IMG/VR virus record: IMGVR_UViG_3300031999_004559
Location: 1 to 32,786 of that record
Length of the DNA: 32,786 nucleotides
Source of the DNA: a virus
Direction: 5' to 3' (one strand)
The translations under genes and the position numbers were made by a program. Below are positions 741 to 23,281 of the stretch, in pieces. Below the pieces are notes generated by a model, which made no database searches, had not been told where the DNA came from, and saw only the letters and a list, made by a program, of their open reading frames with translations. Position 1 is the stretch's first letter. Each line of letters begins with the position of its first letter.

Positions 741-905
741 ATGAAGAAAGAAATAAAATGCGAAAATTGTAAATGGTGTTATGGTATTCACTTATTTGAA
801 TGTCGTAGATTTCCTCCTCAATTTCCAAGTATTGAACTTACGTATTTTTGCGGGGAATTTAAAAAAAGTCTAAACCCTAACTCTATTATCCAAAAGAGAA
901 TATGA
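741..905 (+). CDS. Small Cys-rich (zinc-binding-like) protein
   Basis: A 54-residue protein. Cysteines at 7, 10, 13, 21 and 37 give the pattern C-x2-C-x2-C...C...C, with the final Cys in a Tyr-Phe-Cys-Gly context. This is a common layout for phage mini zinc fingers of unknown role. The ATG lies 6 bases after the HNH stop codon, and its TGA overlaps the ATG of the transketolase N-terminal gene in an ATGA arrangement, which argues for translational coupling and for a real gene. No catalytic motif is visible. It may be a regulatory or scaffold-type Zn peptide; the function is unknown. Confidence 0.6.
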   Translation: MKKEIKCENCKWCYGIHLFECRRFPPQFPSIELTYFCGEFKKSLNPNSIIQKRI

Positions 906-1573
906 AAGACGATCGGGAAATAAGGCAAGAAATACTTACGGCTTCATTTAAAGCCCACGCCTGCCACATTGGTTCAGCTTTGAGTTGTGTCGAACTTTTA
1001 CAAGACATATTTTCTAAAATGAAAAAAGGGGATAGATTTATATTCTCAAAAGCAAGTGGTGCTTGTGCTTATTATGTAATGCTCGGTTATTCCGGAAAAA
1101 AGTTGGTCAATTACCTAAAAAAATACCCCTTATCTTCAAAAGAAGTTCCAGGAGTATTGCATTCTATCGGAAGTCTGGGACACGGACTTCCAGTGGCAGT
1201 AGGATTGGCACTTTCAAACAGAAAACGGGATGTCTATGTTTTGATGGGAGACTCAGAGCTCCAGTGTGGAACGACTTGGGAATGTCTATTATTTATCAGG
1301 CAACACGGACTAAATAACCTTAAAATCTATGTTGATTATAATGGACTTCAGGCCTGCGATAGGATAGACAATATCCTAAAAATTCCCAAATATTTTTTAA
1401 TTAAAAATGGATTTCACTTAATAGCCACCACTAAAGGAAAAGGAGTGGATTTTATTCAAAACAAGGTCGGGTGGCATTACTGGAATTTAACACCAGAACT
1501 TTATGAGAAAGCAATTTTTCAAATCCTTAATGGAGTTGGCGCGAAAAGACGAAAATATAATGTTTCTGACTGA
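902..1573 (+). CDS. Transketolase-like, N-terminal (pyrophosphate-binding) subunit
   Basis: A 223-residue protein matching the thiamine diphosphate pyrophosphate-binding half of split transketolases. Visible signatures are HIGSALS (22-28), GSLGHGLPVAVG (90-101), the metal/ThDP motif GDSEL (116-120) with N147 in DYNGLQ about 30 residues later, and the Lys-Gly-Lys-Gly motif near 178-181 followed by Trp-His at 191-192. The usual GDG is GDS here, and the GHA motif after the 'SK' segment is changed, so the substrate or activity may differ from classical transketolase. It is also shorter than the usual N-terminal subunits (about 270 residues). It overlaps the C-terminal subunit gene by 71 bases. 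Together they should move a two-carbon ketol unit between sugars; supply of an unusual sugar to the glycan cassette is inference. Confidence 0.82.
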   Translation: MKDDREIRQEILTASFKAHACHIGSALSCVELLQDIFSKMKKGDRFIFSKASGACAYYVMLGYSGKKLVNYLKKYPLSSKEVPGVLHSIGSLGHGLPVAVGLALSNRKRDVYVLMGDSELQCGTTWECLLFIRQHGLNNLKIYVDYNGLQACDRIDNILKIPKYFLIKNGFHLIATTKGKGVDFIQNKVGWHYWNLTPELYEKAIFQILNGVGAKRRKYNVSD

Positions 1574-1973
1574 TGATTTAGGATTCGGCTTCTTTGAGGA
1601 ATTTAAGAATAGATTTCCAAAACAATTTATAAACTGTGGAGTAATAGAACAATCAATGACCGGAATTGCGGCAGGATTAGCACTTGGAGGAAAGAAACCT
1701 TATATTTATGGCACTATCCCTTTTGTTTTGATGAGGAATTACGAGCAAATAAGGGATGATATAGCTTACGCCAATTTGAATGTGAAAATCGTGGGTTATT
1801 CAATGTCAGGATTCATAGGTTTCACCCATAATTTAGAGGGCAAGGAGAACGAAGAGGACTTATTAAAAAACCTCCCAAACATTAAAAGATATTATCCAAA
1901 AACGCCCAAACAGGTTGATCGGGCGATGATAAAAAGTTATTTAAATAAAAAACCAAGTTTTATACGATTATGA
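1503..1973 (+). CDS. Transketolase-like, C-terminal (pyrimidine-binding) subunit
   Basis: A 156-residue partner of the preceding gene. It has the pyrimidine-binding domain: the early Leu-Thr-Asp-Asp-Leu segment (22-26), the catalytic Glu in GVIEQSMTGIAAGLA (46-60, E49), and an EQIRDDIAY segment (81-89) as in transketolase central domains. The third, C-terminal transketolase domain is absent; the protein ends right after the pyrimidine domain. The ATG at 1503 fits the family's usual start, so the 71-base overlap with the upstream gene is probably genuine. Split transketolases are usual in archaea and many bacteria, but losing the third domain leaves a minimal enzyme. The active site would form only in the complex of both subunits. 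Confidence 0.8.
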   Translation: MRKQFFKSLMELARKDENIMFLTDDLGFGFFEEFKNRFPKQFINCGVIEQSMTGIAAGLALGGKKPYIYGTIPFVLMRNYEQIRDDIAYANLNVKIVGYSMSGFIGFTHNLEGKENEEDLLKNLPNIKRYYPKTPKQVDRAMIKSYLNKKPSFIRL

Positions 1974-2723: not shown

Positions 2724-3791
2724 ATGAAAAAAATACCATTTGTTAATTTCGGATTACAATATAAAAAGATAAAGCCAGAGATAGACAAGACTATCAATGA
2801 TGTTTTATCCCGTGGTGATTTGATATTAAGAAAAGATGTTGAGGAGTTTGAGGAAAAACTAGCTAAATACATAGGAACACAATATGCCATAGGTGTCAAT
2901 TCAGGGACTGACGCCCTTTTGTTCTCCCTACTGACTACAAATATACATCAAGGAGATGAGGTTTTAGTTCCAGCCCATACATTTTTTGCCACCATAGAAG
3001 CAGTGATCCATTGCCGAAGGGCAACTCCAGTTTTGGTAGATGTCGGGGCAGATTTATTGATGGATTTAGAAGATGCTGAAAGAAAAATAACTTCTAATAC
3101 CAAAGCCATAATCCCAGTCCATTTGGCTGGCAATATGGTTGATATGTATAAGGTTATGAAACTGGCGGCAAAATATAATTTAGTGGTGATAGAGGATGCT
3201 TGCCAAGCATTGGGGGCGAAACAGGATAAGATGGCTGGTTCTTATGGGTTGACTGGATGCTTTAGTTTTTATCCGGCAAAGATTCTGGGTGCTTATGGCG
3301 ATGCTGGGGCAGTGGTTACAAACGATCCTTTGACTTGGATGAAGATAAGATTATTGAGAAACCACGGCGGAAAACCAAACAACTTATTTGTCGGGCATAA
3401 TTCACGGCTTGATAATTTACAGGCGGCGATATTGAACACTAAATTCAACCACTTAGATGACTGGCTAACGAGGAGGGCGAATATAGCATTGTCTTATAAT
3501 ACCAATCTGAAGGGGGTTGGGGATTTGGTATTGCCAGAAATGAAAGAAGGCCGTGTCTGGCAAGACTACATTATCAGAACAAACGCAAGGGATGCTTTAT
3601 TCAAGTTCTTACAGGAAAAGGGGATTGAAACCTTAATCAACAAATACCCCTTTCCTTCAGAATTCCAGATTCCAGAATATACCCAGTATGTCGGCAAGAC
3701 TTCTTTGAGACTGCCAATAGCGCCAGAACTGACTGATGCCCAGATAAAATATGTGATAACCCAAATTCAAAACTTCTATGAAAGAATATAG
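2724..3791 (+). CDS. DegT/DnrJ/EryC1 sugar aminotransferase (WbpE-like)
   Basis: A 355-residue PLP-dependent nucleotide-sugar aminotransferase, full length for the family. SGTDAL (60-65) binds the cofactor phosphate, D158 in EDACQALGA contacts the pyridine nitrogen, and K186 in FYPAKILGAYGDAG is the Schiff-base Lys. A conserved HNSRLDNLQAAIL-type segment follows in the second half. The family moves an amino group from glutamate to a keto-sugar nucleotide. The adjacent hexapeptide N-acetyltransferase, and the 6-dehydrogenase and Gfo/Idh/MocA oxidoreductase 3-4 kb downstream, favour the WbpE role: amination of UDP-3-keto-GlcNAc-uronic acid at C3. A C4 aminotransferase acting on the product of the neighbouring 4,6-dehydratase (PseC/PglE type) is the alternative. 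Its stop overlaps the next gene by 14 bases. Confidence 0.9.
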   Translation: MKKIPFVNFGLQYKKIKPEIDKTINDVLSRGDLILRKDVEEFEEKLAKYIGTQYAIGVNSGTDALLFSLLTTNIHQGDEVLVPAHTFFATIEAVIHCRRATPVLVDVGADLLMDLEDAERKITSNTKAIIPVHLAGNMVDMYKVMKLAAKYNLVVIEDACQALGAKQDKMAGSYGLTGCFSFYPAKILGAYGDAGAVVTNDPLTWMKIRLLRNHGGKPNNLFVGHNSRLDNLQAAILNTKFNHLDDWLTRRANIALSYNTNLKGVGDLVLPEMKEGRVWQDYIIRTNARDALFKFLQEKGIETLINKYPFPSEFQIPEYTQYVGKTSLRLPIAPELTDAQIKYVITQIQNFYERI

Positions 3792-4215
3792 TGGTAAATA
3801 TATCAATCTTTGGGGTAATGCCAAAATTGGAGACGGAACAAAAATTGGGAGTTTTGTTGACATCGGAGGAACAGTAGGGAGGAATTGTAAAATCCAGTCC
3901 TTCGTTTTTATCCCAGAAGGAGTGACTATCGGGGATAATGTTTTCGTCGGTCCAGGAACGACTTTCACTAATGACAAAAATCCTCCTTCTGGTGGTAAGG
4001 GTTGGGCACCCACTATGGTCAAGTCGGGGGCAAGAATTGCGGCAAGAGTAACCATACTTCCAGGAGTAACGATAGGAGAAAATGCTTTTATAGGCGCAGG
4101 TTCGTTGGTTACAAAAGATATACCTCCAAATGAACTTTGGTATGGTCACCCTGCTGTGTTTATAAGAAAATGCGAAACAAAGTTATCCTCATCACCGGCG
4201 GTGCAGGAAGCATAG
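3778..4215 (+). CDS. Left-handed beta-helix sugar N-acetyltransferase (WbpD/FdtC-like)
   Basis: A 145-residue protein made largely of hexapeptide (LbH) repeats such as IGDGTKIGSFVDIG and ILPGVTIGENAFIGAGS, which build a trimeric acetyltransferase. FTNDKNP (63-69) is the loop found in WbpD/FdtC-type nucleotide-aminosugar N-acetyltransferases, and the ending VTKDIPPNELWYGHPA matches the usual VxKDVPPN...GxPA. It should acetylate the amine made by the aminotransferase it overlaps, using acetyl-CoA. In the proposed pathway this gives UDP-2,3-diacetamido-2,3-dideoxy-glucuronic acid. The last 16 residues are outside the fold and overlap the dehydratase gene by 46 bases in another frame. Confidence 0.88.
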   Translation: MKEYSGKYINLWGNAKIGDGTKIGSFVDIGGTVGRNCKIQSFVFIPEGVTIGDNVFVGPGTTFTNDKNPPSGGKGWAPTMVKSGARIAARVTILPGVTIGENAFIGAGSLVTKDIPPNELWYGHPAVFIRKCETKLSSSPAVQEA

Positions 4216-4982
4216 GTTCAGAACTATGCCAACAACTGGCGGAACACAATAAGGTAATAGCGTTAGACCAAAATGAGTCTGGTTTATTTGATTTAAAAGG
4301 AGTGATACCAGAGATAGCCGACATTAGAGACCAAGAGAGATTAGAAGAGATATTTAATAAACACAAACCAGAGATAGTCTTCCACGCCGCCGCCTACAAA
4401 CATTTATCCCATTTTGAGAAAGACCATTTCTCGGAAGTGATAAAGACGAATATCTTCGGGACAATGAATATTTTGCGGTTGGTCAATTCCTATAAGACAA
4501 AATTCATATTTGTTTCAACCGATAAGGCGGTCAATCCAACCTCCTTAATGGGAACAACAAAACTAATAGGGGAAATAATAACAAAAAGATGCGGAGGGAT
4601 TGTGGTAAGGTTTGGCAATGTTTTAGGAAGCAGGGGTTCGGTGATACCTATTTGGCAAGAGCAGATTTCGGCAGGAAAACCGATAACCATAACCGATGAA
4701 AGAATGGAAAGGTTTTTTATGAGCATAGAAGAGGCGTGTGCCTTAGTAATTAAGGCGGCGGAAATAGGAAAAGGCGGCGAAATATTCATCCTTGATATGG
4801 GGAAGCCGGTGAAGATAATTGATTTAGCTAAAAAGATAATGAAAGAAGCCAGAAGTGAAGTTCCGATTAAAATAACTGGAGTCAAGCAAGGAGAGAAGTT
4901 GACCGAGGAACTTATGACGCCAGAGGAAAAATTGAGGGCAATTAAAAAAGATAAGTTTTTTATAATCTATGACAAAGTTTGA
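4170..4982 (+). CDS. UDP-GlcNAc 4,6-dehydratase-like SDR (FlaA1/WbpM/CapD family)
   Basis: A 270-residue extended short-chain dehydrogenase. GGAGSIG (10-16) binds the dinucleotide, AAAYKH (73-78) is the FlaA1-type active-site helix, STDKAVNPTS (116-125) carries the catalytic Thr-Asp-Lys, and Met127-x3-Lys131 replaces the usual YxxxK, as is normal in this family. RFGNVLGSRGSVIP (147-160) is the family signature. It should form a 4-keto-6-deoxy sugar from UDP-GlcNAc. It lacks the membrane and extra Rossmann domains of WbpM/CapD and is close in size to soluble FlaA1/PseB, though shorter (about 330 there). I start at ATG 4170 rather than 4137, because the extra 11 residues precede the beta-strand that always opens the fold. 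Its product could feed a second sugar of the same glycan. Confidence 0.9.
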   Translation: MRNKVILITGGAGSIGSELCQQLAEHNKVIALDQNESGLFDLKGVIPEIADIRDQERLEEIFNKHKPEIVFHAAAYKHLSHFEKDHFSEVIKTNIFGTMNILRLVNSYKTKFIFVSTDKAVNPTSLMGTTKLIGEIITKRCGGIVVRFGNVLGSRGSVIPIWQEQISAGKPITITDERMERFFMSIEEACALVIKAAEIGKGGEIFILDMGKPVKIIDLAKKIMKEARSEVPIKITGVKQGEKLTEELMTPEEKLRAIKKDKFFIIYDKV

Positions 4983-5812: not shown

Positions 5813-6489
5813 AAGTTTCCGTAATCATTCCCACAATTAAAAGACCAACATTAAAAGAGGCGGTGGAAAGCGTCAAGAACCAAACCTTCAAGGATTTTGA
5901 GTTGATTATTATTGAGGACAAGAAGCATCAAGGGATAGCCAAGACCTTAAACGCAGGGACAAGAAAAGCCAAAGGAAAGTATATCGCCATTTTGGCTGAT
6001 GATGATTCTTGGATAAGCAAAGACAAATTAGAAAGACAAGTTGAGTTCTTGGATAAACATAAAGACTATATCTTAGTTGGCACAAGTTCAATAGAGGTTG
6101 ATAAAACCGGAAAAGAGATAGCAAGATTTAACAGTAACTGTTTTATGAGTGCCTTTCCTCCCCATTCTTCGGTGCTTTATCGAAAAGAGGCGGGGGAATA
6201 TAGTGAGGATTTGAAACGGGCAATAGACCTTGATTTCTTTTTAAGAATTAGGAAGTTGGGAAAGTTTGGATTTATGCCCGATTGCTTTATAAAATATCGG
6301 GAAGATTCTGACACTAAAAATGTTGTGAAGAAGCGCCAAGAAGATTCTTTTTGGTGCTTAAAAGTATTCCTGCGCCATAAAGTTTGGAAAGAATATCCAA
6401 AGGCAGTTATAAGATATTTAGTATTTTCATTATTAAAGGTTTTTCCAGAACCATATTATTTATACAGAAAAATACGATATGAAAAATAA
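5809..6489 (+). CDS. Family 2 glycosyltransferase (GT-A fold)
   Basis: A 226-residue protein opening with the GT2 signature: a first strand VSVIIPT (3-9), then ELIIIEDK with the nucleotide-binding acidic residue near 36-37. QGIAKTLNAG (41-50) and the metal-binding DDD motif (64-66, in ILADDDSW) follow. AIDLDFFLRI in the second half holds the acidic residues expected near the catalytic base. The C-terminus is basic and aromatic and may lie on the membrane. It should transfer a sugar from a nucleotide donor; donor and acceptor are unknown. The ATG overlaps the methyltransferase stop by 4 bases (ATGA), consistent with coupled translation in the cassette. Confidence 0.88.
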   Translation: MKVSVIIPTIKRPTLKEAVESVKNQTFKDFELIIIEDKKHQGIAKTLNAGTRKAKGKYIAILADDDSWISKDKLERQVEFLDKHKDYILVGTSSIEVDKTGKEIARFNSNCFMSAFPPHSSVLYRKEAGEYSEDLKRAIDLDFFLRIRKLGKFGFMPDCFIKYREDSDTKNVVKKRQEDSFWCLKVFLRHKVWKEYPKAVIRYLVFSLLKVFPEPYYLYRKIRYEK

Positions 6490-7249
6490 AATAGGAATTA
6501 TGGGAGTAGGATTCGTAGGAGGTGCTTTGGCTAAGTGTTTAGAAGAGCCAATCTTATACGATCCGCCAAAAAGATTAGGTTCGGTTGAGGAACTGAATAA
6601 AGCTGATATAATTTTTATCTGTGTTCCTACGCCATACAATGAAAGGGGATTTGATGCCTCAATGTTAGAGGATGCCTTTTCTGTCATTAAGGGGAATAAA
6701 ATAGTGGTAATCAAATCGACAGTGATTCCTGGGACAACCGAAAGATTTCAGGCAATGTATCCTAACCTGAAAGTCTTGTTTAATCCCGAATTCCTGACCG
6801 AAAAGACAGCCGACTTTGATATGCAGAGGCCTGATAGGCAGATTATAGGATATACCAAGGAAAGTTATTCTGTGGCCGAGGATATTATACTGATGCTTCC
6901 TTTAGCCCCATTTGAAAGAATAATGCCAGCCAAAGAAGCGGAGATGGTAAAGTATTTCAATAATTCTTGGTTTGGGACCAAGGTAGTGTTCTGTAACCAA
7001 ATGTATGATTTATGCAAAAAAATGGGGGTAGATTATGACAGCATCAAAGAGTGTGTTTCAGCCGACAGGAGAATAGGAAAGACACACCTTGAAATATGGT
7101 ATCAAAAGAACTTCAGGGGATATTCTGGCAAGTGCCTGCCAAAAGATATAAAATCCCTACTTCAGTTTGCCGAAAAAATAGGGGCTGATTTAGAACTATT
7201 AAAAGTAGTGGATAAAATAAACGATAAACTAATTAAAATAACAAAATGA
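6479..7249 (+). CDS. UDP-GlcNAc/UDP-Glc 6-dehydrogenase-like, lacking C-terminal domain (WbpA-like)
   Basis: A 256-residue NAD-dependent nucleotide-sugar dehydrogenase. GVGFVG (9-14) binds NAD, STVIPGTT (80-87) and NPEFLTE (102-108) are family signatures, K158 in MVKYFNN is the conserved active-site Lys, and C219 in GYSGKCLPKD is the catalytic Cys of the double oxidation. Standard enzymes have 400-430 residues; this one stops where the C-terminal UDP-binding domain should begin, so it is a two-domain form. It would turn UDP-GlcNAc (WbpA role) or UDP-Glc into the uronic acid. The next gene acts on UDP-GlcNAc-uronic acid in known pathways, which favours WbpA. It overlaps both neighbours (11 and 4 bases). 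Confidence 0.87.
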   Translation: MKNKIGIMGVGFVGGALAKCLEEPILYDPPKRLGSVEELNKADIIFICVPTPYNERGFDASMLEDAFSVIKGNKIVVIKSTVIPGTTERFQAMYPNLKVLFNPEFLTEKTADFDMQRPDRQIIGYTKESYSVAEDIILMLPLAPFERIMPAKEAEMVKYFNNSWFGTKVVFCNQMYDLCKKMGVDYDSIKECVSADRRIGKTHLEIWYQKNFRGYSGKCLPKDIKSLLQFAEKIGADLELLKVVDKINDKLIKITK

Positions 7250-7974
7250 GATTCTCATTTTTAGGCACGGGTTTCATATTTCCAACCCATCTAAGGGCGA
7301 TCCAGGAGGTTGGAGGAGAAATAGTTGGTTATGATACTAATGAGGATTGCGTGGTTATATTAGCACCTAATGATAAACATTTTTCTCTTTGTTTGCAAGA
7401 AGTTAAAAAAGGGAAAAAAGTTTTATGTGAAAAGCCACTGGTTATTAGCAGTGTTGATGCAAAAATACTTGCCCAATTCCCAAATATTTATACTGTTTTT
7501 CAATTAAGGCATCATCCAATATTAAAGGAAATAGAAGTTAAAGATATAAACCACATTGATATGGATATAAGCGTTCATCGGGATGATAAATATTTTAATA
7601 GTTGGAAAGGCCAGAACGAGAGGTCGGGTGGAATAATATTCAATTTAGGAATCCACTTTTTTGATGTTCTTATACAATTATTTGGATTTCCTACTCATTG
7701 GGAAACCTTCCATTTTGATATAAAAGGAGCAAGTGGCCTTATGAGGGGGGATAAATATGAATGTAATTGGCGCTTAAAACTAGATGAAGATAAAAAAACC
7801 CAACGGAGGGTATTGAAAATAAATCAAAAAGAATACAACCTTTCAGCCAAAGAAAACCTTGCTTATGAAAATCTGCACAAATATGTTTATCAGGATTTAT
7901 TAGAAGGCAAGGGAGTTCAAGCCAAAGAAGTAGTCGAATTAATACACTTATTAGAGAAACTATCACTAAAATGA
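7246..7974 (+). CDS. Gfo/Idh/MocA oxidoreductase, WbpB/WlbA-like, compact
   Basis: A 242-residue protein. It has a degenerate N-terminal FLGTGFIFPTHLRAI (5-19), the hallmark CEKPL (61-65, catalytic K63), QLRHHP (86-91), SWKG (119-122) and GIHFFDVL (135-142, active-site H137). These motifs and their order match WbpB/WlbA, which oxidise UDP-GlcNAc-uronic acid at C3. Known members have about 310-350 residues. Here roughly 40 residues are missing between the first strand region (GYDTNED, 28-34) and the strand leading to EKP, and the C-terminus is short. It follows the 6-dehydrogenase directly with a 4-base overlap, and with the aminotransferase and acetyltransferase upstream it completes the diacetamido-uronic acid route. 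Confidence 0.85.
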   Translation: MRFSFLGTGFIFPTHLRAIQEVGGEIVGYDTNEDCVVILAPNDKHFSLCLQEVKKGKKVLCEKPLVISSVDAKILAQFPNIYTVFQLRHHPILKEIEVKDINHIDMDISVHRDDKYFNSWKGQNERSGGIIFNLGIHFFDVLIQLFGFPTHWETFHFDIKGASGLMRGDKYECNWRLKLDEDKKTQRRVLKINQKEYNLSAKENLAYENLHKYVYQDLLEGKGVQAKEVVELIHLLEKLSLK

Positions 7975-10433: not shown

Positions 10434-10750
10434 CTGATAATCAGCAAGAAAACAACAAAAAAGTAATAGGAAAACCATTTCCTCCTGGAGTTTCGGGCAA
10501 TCCAAAAGGCAGACCGAAGGGCAAGACAATGAAGGAATATGCAAGAGAATTCTTAATGAGTATGACCGATGATAAGAAACTTGAATTTCTCAATACTTTA
10601 TCAAAGGAAGTCGTGTGGAAAATGGCGGAAGGAAATCCACATCAGGATACAGATATAAAGCACGATGTCTCTGATAATCTATTTGAGTTAATAAACAATG
10701 CAATTAGAGAGGAAGAAGGCGATACAATTCCAGGAGAAGATAAGGAATGA
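10409..10750 (+). CDS. Probable terminase small subunit (DUF5681-type)
   Basis: A 113-residue protein. KPFPPGVSGNPKGRPKGK (22-39) is the signature of the DUF5681 N-terminal domain, a Gly/Pro/Lys-rich segment found in proteins encoded just before large terminases in many phages. The rest is helical and acidic toward the C-terminus. The role is recognition of viral DNA and handing it to the large subunit. It overlaps the large subunit gene by 53 bases. There is no clear HTH, so assignment as small terminase rests on the motif and on position. Confidence 0.7.
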   Translation: MVDIPEDIADNQQENNKKVIGKPFPPGVSGNPKGRPKGKTMKEYAREFLMSMTDDKKLEFLNTLSKEVVWKMAEGNPHQDTDIKHDVSDNLFELINNAIREEEGDTIPGEDKE

Positions 10751-12071
10751 ACCTAAATGGTTTTTTGATACCATTCTTAAAAGACCTCTTTGGGCAAAAG
10801 AAGAGGAGATTTTGCTTGCTGTAAAAGATAATAGAGATGTATCTGTCAGGAGTTGTAATGCTTCGGGCAAGACTTATACGGCTGGCGGGATAGTTCATTG
10901 GTATCTTATGGGGTTTGAAGATGCTGTGGTTATCACAACCGCCCCAACAGGAAGGCAGGTTAAAGAAGTATTATGGAGAGAGATTAAAGCGGGTTGTTCT
11001 GGTAGGCACTTATATCCCATAAACTCTGTTTTAGAAACTAAAATAGGGCTTGGAGATAAATGCTTTGCTTTAGGATTGGCTACAGATACTCCCGATCAAT
11101 TTCAGGGGTTTCACTCAAAGAACTTGATGGTTATAGTTGACGAAGCGTCCGGTGTTGATGACACTATTTTTGAAGCAATAGACGGATTAAAACCAACAAG
11201 GATACTATTATTAGGAAACCCATTAAGGACAACTGGAAGATTCGCAAACACTTTTAAGGAAGAAGGAATTAAAAAGATTGCTATTTCGGCATTTGATACT
11301 CCAAACTTAAAAGAGGGAAGAATAGTAATTCCCGGGTTGATAACAAAAGAAGACGTAGAGAAGATTAAGCAAAGATATGGTGAAGATAGCGATGTTTATA
11401 GGGTTAGGATATTGGGGGAGTTTCCAAAAGCAGAATCAGATGTCTTAATTTCAATTGATGAGGTATATCAGGCAATAAATAGGGAAGTTGTTGTTAATCC
11501 GCAATTTGAAAAGAAAATGGGGGTTGATATTGCAAGATATGGAGATGACAGAAGTGTTATAGTAATTAGGCAAATGGAAAAGGTTTTAAGAAAAGAAGTT
11601 ATACAAGGGGCAGATTTAATGAGTTTGGCGGGGCAGATAATAAAGATAGCAAAAGAAGATTATGTGAAGCCAGAGAATATAAACTTAGATGTTATAGGAA
11701 TGGGGGCTGGAGTTGTTGACAGGTTGAGGGAACAGGGCTGGAAAGTTAATGGGATAAATGTTGCGATGCCAGCCCAAGATCCTGAACATTATGCTAATTT
11801 GCGGGCAGAACTTTATAATAAAATCAAAGATTGGATTAAGAAAGCACAACTGACGAAAGATGACGACTGGTATGAGTTAACAAATGTAAAATATAAATTT
11901 ACATCAAAAGGACAAATGATAATGGAGAAAAAGGAAGATATGAAAAAGCGGGGAATACCAAGCCCAGATGTTGCGGATGCCCTGACATTAACATTTGCAA
12001 GTATGGGAATAATATCTTATCAGCAGGCATCAAAACCTGTATTACCCTACTATCCCGAAATGGGATTTTAA
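10698..12071 (+). CDS. terL: Terminase large subunit
   Basis: A 457-residue packaging motor. The N-terminal ATPase has a Walker A variant SCNASGKT (52-59), Walker B VIVDEA (145-150) with the catalytic Glu, and a coupling motif LLGNP (171-175). The C-terminal RNase H-like nuclease shows D277 in GVDIARYGDDRSV, D331 in LDVIGMGAG, and D424/D427 in SPDVADALTL, the three acidic positions that bind metal. Length is ordinary for the family. It pumps DNA into the prohead through the portal and cuts it. The ATG lies inside the small subunit gene. Unusually, two glycan genes, a small ORF and a long non-coding region separate it from the portal gene. Confidence 0.96.
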   Translation: MQLERKKAIQFQEKIRNEPKWFFDTILKRPLWAKEEEILLAVKDNRDVSVRSCNASGKTYTAGGIVHWYLMGFEDAVVITTAPTGRQVKEVLWREIKAGCSGRHLYPINSVLETKIGLGDKCFALGLATDTPDQFQGFHSKNLMVIVDEASGVDDTIFEAIDGLKPTRILLLGNPLRTTGRFANTFKEEGIKKIAISAFDTPNLKEGRIVIPGLITKEDVEKIKQRYGEDSDVYRVRILGEFPKAESDVLISIDEVYQAINREVVVNPQFEKKMGVDIARYGDDRSVIVIRQMEKVLRKEVIQGADLMSLAGQIIKIAKEDYVKPENINLDVIGMGAGVVDRLREQGWKVNGINVAMPAQDPEHYANLRAELYNKIKDWIKKAQLTKDDDWYELTNVKYKFTSKGQMIMEKKEDMKKRGIPSPDVADALTLTFASMGIISYQQASKPVLPYYPEMGF

Positions 12072-12075
12072 ACAT

Positions 12076-12948
12076 ATGAAATACAAATCAATTATAGGTC
12101 TTAGTGGTGGTTTAGATAGTTCAATGACCGCTTGGTTAATCGGCAAAGAAAAGCCATTAGCTCTAATAGTCGATAACCATTGGAACACAGACATAGCCAA
12201 CAGGAATATAATAAGGATCATCAACCATTTCCAACTGGACTACCTATGGATTAAAGTTGACCGAGAGCAGTTCAGGGATTTGCAGTTAGCGTTTATAAAG
12301 TCTGGAATATCAAATATAGAAATCCCAACAGACCACATTTTATATGCTTTAGTTTATAAAGTAGCTGATATGGTTGGGGCTAAAGTTATTTACAATGGCG
12401 GTAATCCCCAAACAGAAGGGAATATGCCAGAAGAGTGGGGATATAATGCAAGAGACTTGAAGTTCATCAAGGCGATACATAAAAGATTCGGTGAAAAGCC
12501 GATGGATAAAGTGCCGACATTGTCTTTGCTGGGCTATCTCTATTACATATTCATCAAGAGAATCAAGATAGTCCAGCCATTAGAGGACACAGACTACAAC
12601 GTAAAAAGAGCGAAGGAACTATTAAAGAAAGAAATCGGCTGGGAGGATTACGGAGACAAACACGAAGAATCAATCTATACAAAGTGGTTTCAGCAGACTT
12701 ACTTGCCTGAAAAATTCGGAAGAGACAAAAGAATACCTCATTATCAGGCATTAGTTAATTCCTGGCAGATGACAGAAGAGGAAATGCAGGAAAGATTAAA
12801 GACAAAACCAATTAATAAATTAGAACCATTTAATATTGACTGGCGGAATATTCCCATAACAACATACAAGGATTATCCCAACGATTCTTGGGTATTCAAT
12901 CAAACCAGTCCTCTGATGAAGTTAGGAAGAAAAATAATAAAACATTAA
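12076..12948 (+). CDS. N-acetyl sugar amidotransferase, PP-loop ATPase (WbpG/PseA-like)
   Basis: A 290-residue member of the adenine-nucleotide alpha-hydrolase superfamily. SGGLDSS (10-16) is the PP-loop that binds ATP. IVDNHWN (31-37), DLQLAF (68-73), PTDH (84-87), NGGNPQTEG (107-115) and WGYNARDLK (121-129) match the sugar amidotransferase family, as does a late DYGDKHEESI segment. WbpG and PseA convert an acetamido group on a sugar into acetamidino, using ammonia supplied by partner HisH/HisF-like proteins, which are not in this window. The ATG is 4 bases after the terminase stop. In context it would amidinate the diacetamido-uronic acid made upstream. The family call is strong; the substrate is inferred. 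Confidence 0.88.
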   Translation: MKYKSIIGLSGGLDSSMTAWLIGKEKPLALIVDNHWNTDIANRNIIRIINHFQLDYLWIKVDREQFRDLQLAFIKSGISNIEIPTDHILYALVYKVADMVGAKVIYNGGNPQTEGNMPEEWGYNARDLKFIKAIHKRFGEKPMDKVPTLSLLGYLYYIFIKRIKIVQPLEDTDYNVKRAKELLKKEIGWEDYGDKHEESIYTKWFQQTYLPEKFGRDKRIPHYQALVNSWQMTEEEMQERLKTKPINKLEPFNIDWRNIPITTYKDYPNDSWVFNQTSPLMKLGRKIIKH

Positions 12949-21973: not shown

Positions 21974-22003
21974 AGGAGAAATCTTTATTAGATTTAGAAT
22001 ATG
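21974..22003 (+). promoter_or_regulatory. Ribosome-binding site brought into place by a hairpin
   Basis: AGGAG (21974-21978) is 22 bases from the capsid ATG, too far for ordinary use. Between them AAATCT (21979-21984) pairs perfectly with AGATTT (21990-21995) around a five-base loop. When the hairpin is folded, only AGAAT (five bases) separates the AGGAG from the ATG, an ideal spacing. Similar folded initiation regions are known for some T4 genes. Confidence 0.5.
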
Positions 22004-23281
22004 GCATTAACAAATTTTGGAGAAGCATTTGCGAAGAATTGTCTGAGAAAGTTTTATTTCAAAGCATTAGCTCCTGCAATTTGCAATACTGATTACGAAG
22101 GAGAGGTGAAAGCACTTGGAGATCAGGTTACTATCCTGATGTTCTTGAATGACATAGCGTTAACAACCTATGCGGCTAACACCAATATGACTACCGAGTA
22201 TCCGGTTGATACTGAATCCCATTTACAGATTGACAGAGCAAAATACTGGAACTTCAATATTGACAGAGTGGATAGGTTATTCACTTATGTTGATGACGAA
22301 GACAGCACCTTGATTGAGAACGCTGGTGATGTTTTAACTAAGGCGATTGACACTGATATGATTAAGAAAATATCAGAAGAGTGTCAAGCAGGGCACATTG
22401 TTCCTAATGGCCCATCAGAGGCAGGAACATTTAACCTTGTTATTGGAAGCGTCAACACTTATGTCACCATTACTACTGCGGCATCGTGGGGTGTAGCCAC
22501 CTTAACTGGTGTGTTTCAAGATGAACCCCGTATTGCTGGAGAAGCTAACGGCTGGCCTACAAATATAGTTGGAAGAGGGTTTAGAACCTGTTCGAGCAAG
22601 ATTAACTCACCGTGGTATAGGATCACAGCGAGAACAAACTCGTCAGTTATTACCTTCAACAACTGGGATGGAAGCACAACCGGCGATGGAATATCAGGTT
22701 GTTACATAAAGGGTATGTGGTTAGGAGCAGGTCTCACAGTCGGTGGAACTTGCGGAGTGAGTTATGGTTGCCAGATTGAAGGATACAGAGATACAGCAAT
22801 CACCGCAACTAATATATACGCATTGGTTTGCGAGGCAGCACAGAAACTTGATGAAGAGGGAATTCCGACAGAAGACAGGCACTTAATAATCCCAGCTTGG
22901 TTCAAGGCACGCTTGATTCAGGCGACACAACTCCAGCCAGATATTGCTATGTATTACACAGATACTGTAATAAACGGCAAGGTTGGAAGAGTGGCAGGAT
23001 TTGACTTACACCTGACATCAGATGACAGGTTTAGCACTTGTGTTTCACCCATAATAGATATGGGTTCTACAGGAGACTGGAGTGCGGTAACCGGAACAGG
23101 ATACTTGATACCAGCAGTTCATAAGAGCTTTATCACCTTCGCTCATAAATGGGCGGAATCAAGGGTGGTAGACGCTGAATTACAGTTCGCTAAGTTATAT
23201 CAGGGTTTGAACTTATGGGGTTTCAAGGTGTTACCTTTAAGAAGGAAAGCAGGTGCGGTTATCTACGGACACCCAGCTTAG
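22001..23281 (+). CDS. Major capsid protein (HK97-type fold, probable)
   Basis: A 426-residue protein after the scaffold. GDQVTILMFLNDI (40-52) and SHLQIDRAKYWNFNIDRVDRL (73-93, key pattern IDR.KYWNF.ID.VD) match the N-arm and E-loop/P-domain region of a common phage coat family, as do TDMIKKISEE near 118-127 and the EEGIPTEDRHLIIPAWF region (285-301) that begins the second half of the fold. Between them, about residues 135-268, lies a Gly/Thr/Cys-rich beta insertion with five Cys, not needed for the core fold. The protein builds the icosahedral shell. Translation probably depends on the folded leader just upstream. The fold assignment is by pattern; I cannot compare structures here. Confidence 0.85.
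   Translation: MALTNFGEAFAKNCLRKFYFKALAPAICNTDYEGEVKALGDQVTILMFLNDIALTTYAANTNMTTEYPVDTESHLQIDRAKYWNFNIDRVDRLFTYVDDEDSTLIENAGDVLTKAIDTDMIKKISEECQAGHIVPNGPSEAGTFNLVIGSVNTYVTITTAASWGVATLTGVFQDEPRIAGEANGWPTNIVGRGFRTCSSKINSPWYRITARTNSSVITFNNWDGSTTGDGISGCYIKGMWLGAGLTVGGTCGVSYGCQIEGYRDTAITATNIYALVCEAAQKLDEEGIPTEDRHLIIPAWFKARLIQATQLQPDIAMYYTDTVINGKVGRVAGFDLHLTSDDRFSTCVSPIIDMGSTGDWSAVTGTGYLIPAVHKSFITFAHKWAESRVVDAELQFAKLYQGLNLWGFKVLPLRRKAGAVIYGHPA

Follow-up and report, generated by a model that had tools for sequence, protein, structure and literature searches.

A two-chain, two-domain transketolase-family pair beside sugar-nucleotide genes on a phage contig

Which reaction might a phage carry out with a transketolase that is divided between two small chains and has no third domain? 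The question is raised by the virus contig IMGVR_UViG_3300031999_004559, whose whole stretch of 32,786 bases was analysed and is called the window here. It encodes a terminase large subunit (10698-12071), a major head protein (22001-23281) and the following gene pair:

902..1573, + strand: TktN, the PP (ThDP diphosphate) domain subunit, 223 aa (profile matches, model, PDB match 6yak_AAA)
1503..1973, + strand: TktC, the Pyr domain subunit, 156 aa, C-terminal end SFIRL (profile matches, model, PDB match 6yaj)

Domains of the TktN/TktC pair

A first-pass annotation had described two genes, overlapping by 71 bases, for the PP and Pyr domains of a ThDP enzyme, and this description was borne out by the open reading frames (902-1573 and 1503-1973, in different frames) and by the profile matches. 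TktC matched Transket_pyr at 2.1e-20. The matches of TktN to DXP_synthase_N and TPP_enzyme_C were weak, yet above their cut-offs, and its score against Transketolase_N (21.8 bits) was marginally below the 22-bit cut-off; its best NCBIfam match, the transketolase model NF004559, reached 90.5 bits against a cut-off of 488, and TktN is therefore remote from every curated equivalog. AlphaFold2 single-chain models had a mean pLDDT of 93.1 (TktN) and 92.9 (TktC), and their first PDB matches both came from the split transketolase of Carboxydothermus hydrogenoformans (ChTK): its N chain (6yak) for TktN and its C chain (6yaj) for TktC. ChTK was the best PDB match in both sequence and fold for the two window chains (fold-match identity 30% and 33%). 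The models thus confidently predict that both chains are transketolase domains. A programmed frameshift fusing the two reading frames was also considered and ruled out, because the overlap is not conserved among the six viral members of the clade described below (71 bases in the window, 32 in its sister, 4 in L112, 56 in L113, 1 in L143 and a 17-base gap in L114) and because the extra tail of TktN (the last ~13 aa) was modelled with low confidence.

ChTK resembles the window in having PP and Pyr on separate chains (6yak/6yaj, PMC7661550), and a passage of that paper states that its single chains are inactive and its alpha2beta2 form is active. By analogy, TktN and TktC would most likely assemble as alpha2beta2 and would meet at the ThDP site. 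Unlike the window, transketolases of the ChTK type carry the TKC domain as well on their second chain, according to the same paper; in TktC of the window it was not found. The claim that the third domain is absent agreed with a six-frame profile search of the window record, in which Transketolase_C (PF02780) was not found. This search was positive in 14 of 14 control genomes and in two of three long-form viral records; since it missed the third (L115), a highly diverged third domain could evade detection. PF02780 was likewise absent from all 37 short-form viral records searched (the window and 36 of the 43 short forms counted below) and from four of four Campylobacter phage records. The retained catalytic and cofactor residues sit outside the third domain, so that its loss, to judge from the sequence, need not stop catalysis; a view cited in a passage of PMC7661550 is that TKC was added in the course of evolution.

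Residues kept and changed

Residue roles (Mg ligands, catalytic Glu, substrate-side contacts) are given after E. coli TktA. Key positions in the window are:

965..967, + strand: TktN H22, equivalent to E. coli TktA H26; His in 46 of 46 rows
1247..1255, + strand: GDS replacing GDG, from the alignment; D117 (equivalent to D155, Mg ligand by homology) kept, Gly 118 changed to Ser
1340..1342, + strand: TktN N147, equivalent to E. coli N185, Mg ligand by homology; Asn in 46 of 46 rows
1475..1477, + strand: TktN H192, equivalent to E. coli H261, placed via the WH motif; His in 46 of 46 rows
1647..1649, + strand: TktC E49, equivalent to E. coli E411, the catalytic Glu; Glu in 43 of 43 rows

TktN E127 (E165 in E. 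coli TktA) is also kept, as are R2 (R358), D25 (D381), F74 (F437) and H109 (H473) of TktC. The window pair therefore has the PP and Pyr domains with the Mg-binding Asp/Asn and the catalytic Glu that mark the transketolase/DXPS superfamily, and lacks the GDG that opens its ThDP motif. Three residue-level claims had been made from the sequence, namely that GDG is changed to GDS, that the GHA motif is altered and that the catalytic Glu is kept, and the alignment upheld each of them. The TktN motif reads MGDSEL, and Ser 118 is private to the window among the 46 aligned rows, the other 45 having Gly; the sister phage reads SDGEL at this site and retains Gly at 118. SKGH is changed to SKAS, and Ser occupies the H66 position in four phages (4 of 46 rows). 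Glu at E49 is invariant, as listed. A loss of cofactor-binding residues was not observed, all of them being kept save the third-position Gly of GDG.

Relative to E. coli TktA, the window shows H66 changed to Ser, H100 to Tyr, G156 to Ser and E160 to Cys in TktN (the last two being Ser 118 and Cys 122), and F434 to Thr and D469 to Ile in TktC; the equivalent of R520 lies past the end of the shortened TktC, and the S385 column consists of gaps in nearly all rows. At the four pentose-phosphate contacts H66, H100, D469 and R520, the window thus has Ser, Tyr, Ile and, by truncation, nothing. Loss of H66 is particular to the window clade among short viral forms, since all 30 other short viral rows retain this His; within the four-phage subclade of the window, H66 is Ser, H100 is Tyr in three members and His in one, and D469 is Ile or Leu. 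At the D469 column none of the 13 genome rows on the surface-sugar side of the tree has Asp; of the remaining genome rows 1 of 21 does, and of the remaining short viral rows 10 of 30. Of those 30, 15 have Arg at the position of R520. Because these two positions vary widely among relatives, they are a weak guide to a role in surface-sugar synthesis. Furthermore, beyond residue 172 TktN of the window is gapped at 29 alignment columns that are occupied in half of the rows or more. The changes at H66, H100, E160 and G156 could mean weaker catalysis or an altered reaction.

Comparison with the sister phage (L001) gave a dN/dS of about 0.17 for TktN and about 0.07 for TktC, values that are rough, as dS exceeds 1. 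In the same comparison, dN of the pair was two to six times below that of the DegT, hexapeptide and PseB genes nearby, for which dS has reached saturation. Judged by these ratios, the TktN/TktC pair is under purifying selection. The best annotated PHROG families of the terminases differ between the window phage (phrog_2) and L001 (phrog_38), and the pair therefore seems to have been transferred between unlike phages.

Distribution and phylogeny

Relatives were collected from viral contigs (the best 80 of 131 kept) and from bacterial and archaeal genomes (the best 80 loci among the matches listed), both ranked by similarity to an alignment of five rows with the window at its head, which biases the frequencies; scans with single proteins or two-row alignments recovered only L001 and L003, which lie on one contig. 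Among the best 80 of 131 viral relatives, TktC was too short for a third domain in 43 and long in 37. The virus contig L119 was scored as long; it carries two split transketolase pairs, in which TktC is long and short, respectively. Of the best 80 genome loci among the matches listed, 73 were long, four were short, including L105, which is cut by the contig end, and in three TktC was not found; the true short forms in this set were L033 and L035 (Candidatus Staskawiczbacteria) and L082 (Campylobacteraceae). L105 and the three loci without a TktC (L096, L102 and L109) were not scored as short, yet they are within the 59 'other' genome loci used below. The L033 and L035 genomes each also encode a separate Pyr-domain protein of 317 or 326 aa, and the short form is therefore not their sole one. 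PF17289, the sole terminase family searched across all records, was present in 9 of 37 short-form viral records.

Several matches in the phage collections resemble bacterial chromosome and none of these was counted as phage. The faecal MT83xxxx records L004, L006, L007 and L008 were rejected as phage relatives on account of full-size subunits and chromosome-like neighbours, and the records of an Acinetobacter 'phage' (MD-2021a) and of Salmonella houtenae were rejected because their genes are chromosomal. As a group, L004, L006, L007, L008, L016 and L017 (MT83xxxx clones, with Acinetobacter phage MD-2021a among them) look like pieces of bacterial chromosome.

Five Campylobacter phage records comprised three with both minimal chains (CP220, CP21 and WX1), one with Pyr only and one with neither. 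Their pair corresponds to PHROG 18761 and 23258 and, like that of the window, is made up of small proteins, here of 192 and about 150 aa; unlike in the window, the genes are far apart, and at about 23% and 35% identity to the window the proteins are very diverged. CP220 keeps the equivalents of H26, D155, E165, N185, E411 and H473, as the window does, and differs from it at H66 (Tyr) and G156 (Ala); H261 is unaligned. The pair is annotated in part as putative transketolase, and the PHROGs entry reads unknown function; the minimal TktN of CP220 (L028:11305-11883) is annotated as hypothetical and has a ThDP fold. The claim of a minimal split transketolase in a phage is thus confirmed and can be widened, for the form recurs in 43 of the best 80 of 131 viral loci and in these three cultured Campylobacter phages.

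For phylogenetic analysis, 162 rows were reduced to 104 (28 viral long forms among them, and 35 viral short forms in addition to the window and CP220) by dropping viral rows with at least 90% and genome rows with at least 65% identity to a kept row, L188, and rows with no TktC or under the length limit. From these, 56 rows were picked by hand for a second tree, which excluded CP220 (long branch); L033, a near copy of L035, had been dropped earlier. In the 56-row tree the window grouped with L111, L112 and L113 (bootstrap 100, SH-aLRT 99), and the addition of L114, L143 and L035 from Staskawiczbacteria gave a seven-row clade (100/96), itself nested within a clade of 28 rows comprising 20 viral short, six viral long and two genome short forms (97/97). 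A firm placement with pentose-phosphate transketolases, the question set by the first-pass annotation, was not obtained: a tree constrained to unite the seven-row clade with E. coli TktA and the gut bacterial split transketolases L004 and L007 was rejected (p-AU 4.15e-05, with rows picked after the first, 104-row tree). A single origin of the short form was not rejected by the AU test (p-AU 0.129); the free 56-row tree has two changes between short and long, and the 104-row tree, built quickly, needs four for the label 'viral short'. Because the short forms in the 56-row tree are nested among long forms, loss of the third domain is more likely than an ancestral two-domain state.

Sugar genes around the pair and possible functions

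Downstream of the pair, the window encodes a set of enzymes for sugar modification:

2724..3791, + strand: DegT/DnrJ/EryC1/StrS sugar aminotransferase, cassette partner (profile matches)
3778..4215, + strand: hexapeptide-repeat sugar acyltransferase (profile matches)
4137..4982, + strand: PseB-like (Polysacc_synt_2) nucleotide-sugar dehydratase, cassette partner (PseB match below the curated cut-off); the real start is probably inside this reading frame
6479..7249, + strand: shortened UDP-sugar 6-dehydrogenase (no match listed for the C-terminal UDP-binding domain)
7246..7974, + strand: shortened GFO/IDH/MocA sugar oxidoreductase (profile matches)
12076..12948, + strand: WbuX-like N-acetyl sugar amidotransferase (130.5 bits, below the 203.2 cut-off)

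We take the DegT, hexapeptide, UDP-sugar dehydrogenase, GFO/IDH and WbuX-like genes to resemble a compact version of the Pseudomonas O5 UDP-ManNAc(3NAm)A pathway. Neighbours of the other loci were searched with the window and L001 proteins as seeds, a search that misses divergent genes. A PseB-like gene and a DegT gene both occurred within 6 kb of the pair in six of six viral clade members, and these constant partners, a dehydratase and an aminotransferase, suggest ketol transfer on an intermediate of their pathway. Among the other short viral loci, PseB was found in 0 of 38 and DegT in 8 of 38, and among long viral loci PseB in 8 of 37 and DegT in 15 of 37. GFO/IDH lay near the pair in two of the six clade members (the window and L114), and a WbuX-like relative within 6 kb in three (L112, L114 and L143); the WbuX family model, run on L114 and the window gene only, gave 197.7 bits for L114, below the cut-off. 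For genome loci (best 80 among the matches listed), DegT and PseB each occurred in 9 of 18 loci on the sugar side and in 2 of 59 and 0 of 59 other loci, respectively (Fisher p 1.3e-05 for DegT and 3.0e-07 for PseB), where the 18 loci were selected from the tree after inspection and include near relatives that inflate the significance. In L033 and L035 the neighbour of the pair is a GlmS that passes its NCBIfam cut-off, and PseB and DegT were not seen there; this neighbour allows a sugar-phosphate substrate. The flanks of 30 other short viral loci contained 16 radical SAM and 14 epimerase/dehydratase family proteins among the 106 scanned (of 112, six minus-strand ones being left out). Radical SAM genes lie on both sides of the minimal pair in virus contig L147 (adjoining) and in L082 from Campylobacteraceae (two genes off). 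Given such neighbours, functions may differ among the short forms.

The bacterial split transketolases beside DegT/PseB-type genes (for example Pelagibacteraceae L031 and L039) are the nearest on the three-domain side and have the same partners; unlike the window, they have a long TktC and a longer TktN, and all 13 rows keep H66, 12 of them also H100. We put the probability slightly above even that the pair acts as a ThDP-dependent ketol transferase, with its two domains on two chains, in a phage-encoded surface-sugar pathway that includes the PseB-type dehydratase and the DegT aminotransferase. The pair would descend from three-domain surface-polysaccharide split transketolases. The dehydratase, of the kind making 4-keto sugars, and the aminotransferase would act in the same pathway, and the single most likely chemistry would be the shift of a two-carbon ketol unit onto or off one of its intermediates, a keto or amino sugar, by which the phage might change or add a sugar on the host surface or another glycan. 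Domain content, the retained cofactor and catalytic residues, the position in the tree and the conserved neighbours are observations; the tetramer, the activity, the donor, the acceptor and the benefit to the phage are parts of this scheme that we infer. On genomic context, an activated (nucleotide-bound) sugar, instead of a sugar phosphate, may be the substrate.

Other functions are conceivable for such a pair. If it were a trimmed general transketolase that feeds pentose phosphates or erythrose 4-phosphate in infection, as other viral metabolic genes do, the retained fold, catalytic Glu and R358 equivalent would be accounted for, and passages in two papers file viral transketolase genes under the pentose phosphate pathway (PMC3877843) or, as tktA/tktB in a metagenome study, among auxiliary genes (PMC13390420). 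This function is nevertheless improbable, because union with pentose-phosphate enzymes was rejected by the tree test, H66 and H100 are lost and the R520 equivalent is cut off, and the neighbours identified are sugar-nucleotide genes. The rejected union (p-AU 4.15e-05), the changes at H66 and H100 and the nucleotide-sugar neighbours also speak for the first-pass suggestion of a specialised enzyme, and, as far as sequence can tell, a specialised ketol transferase of the transketolase family is more likely than a pentose-phosphate enzyme. Somewhat less improbable, although still unlikely, is an enzyme for amino-sugar phosphates fed by DegT or, in Staskawiczbacteria, by GlmS. It would follow the example of rifamycin orf15, an amino-sugar transketolase in a transaminase-containing pathway, which converts aminofructose 6-phosphate to iminoerythrose 4-phosphate (a passage of PMC8788734) and is likened to the proposed role of the window pair by description, not by sequence, its own role being in secondary metabolism. 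Besides this precedent, the combination of a split transketolase with DegT and GFO/IDH in the window and L114, and GlmS adjoining the pair in L033 and L035, would fit; GFO/IDH, however, is near the pair in just two of the six viral clade members, and a sugar kinase or aminoshikimate gene was not found among the scanned window proteins, several of which were compared with PHROGs only.

A decaying or non-catalytic pair whose fold is kept for another use would agree with Ser 118 and Cys 122 and with the missing third domain and 29 TktN columns. The low dN/dS (about 0.17 and 0.07), the invariant Mg ligands and catalytic residues and the Gly at 118 in the sister phage make this very unlikely. We return therefore to the two-domain ketol transferase of a surface-sugar pathway, of which a bolder version, tentative and rather doubtful as a whole, would be that phages carry recurrent, little-annotated two-domain split ketol transferases cut from surface-sugar transketolases, and that the four-phage subclade of the window, with a new donor or acceptor, makes a novel sugar, such as a branched sugar, keto or amino, assembled on a nucleotide-linked 4-keto sugar.

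Split transketolases (a passage of PMC7661550) and viral transketolases are each already known, and no publication on split or two-domain transketolases of phages was found in the open-access literature. If our reading is true, the third transketolase domain has been lost in many natural phage enzymes, leaving small two-domain ketol transferases, phages are tied to surface-sugar chemistry and functions are suggested for two PHROG families of unknown function. Certain viral tkt genes now assigned to the pentose phosphate pathway may then be surface-sugar genes. CP220 also has a compact UDP-glucose dehydrogenase (L018:14033-14803), far from its TktN, and this 256-aa relative matches the length of the shortened UDP-sugar dehydrogenase of the window (6479-7249).
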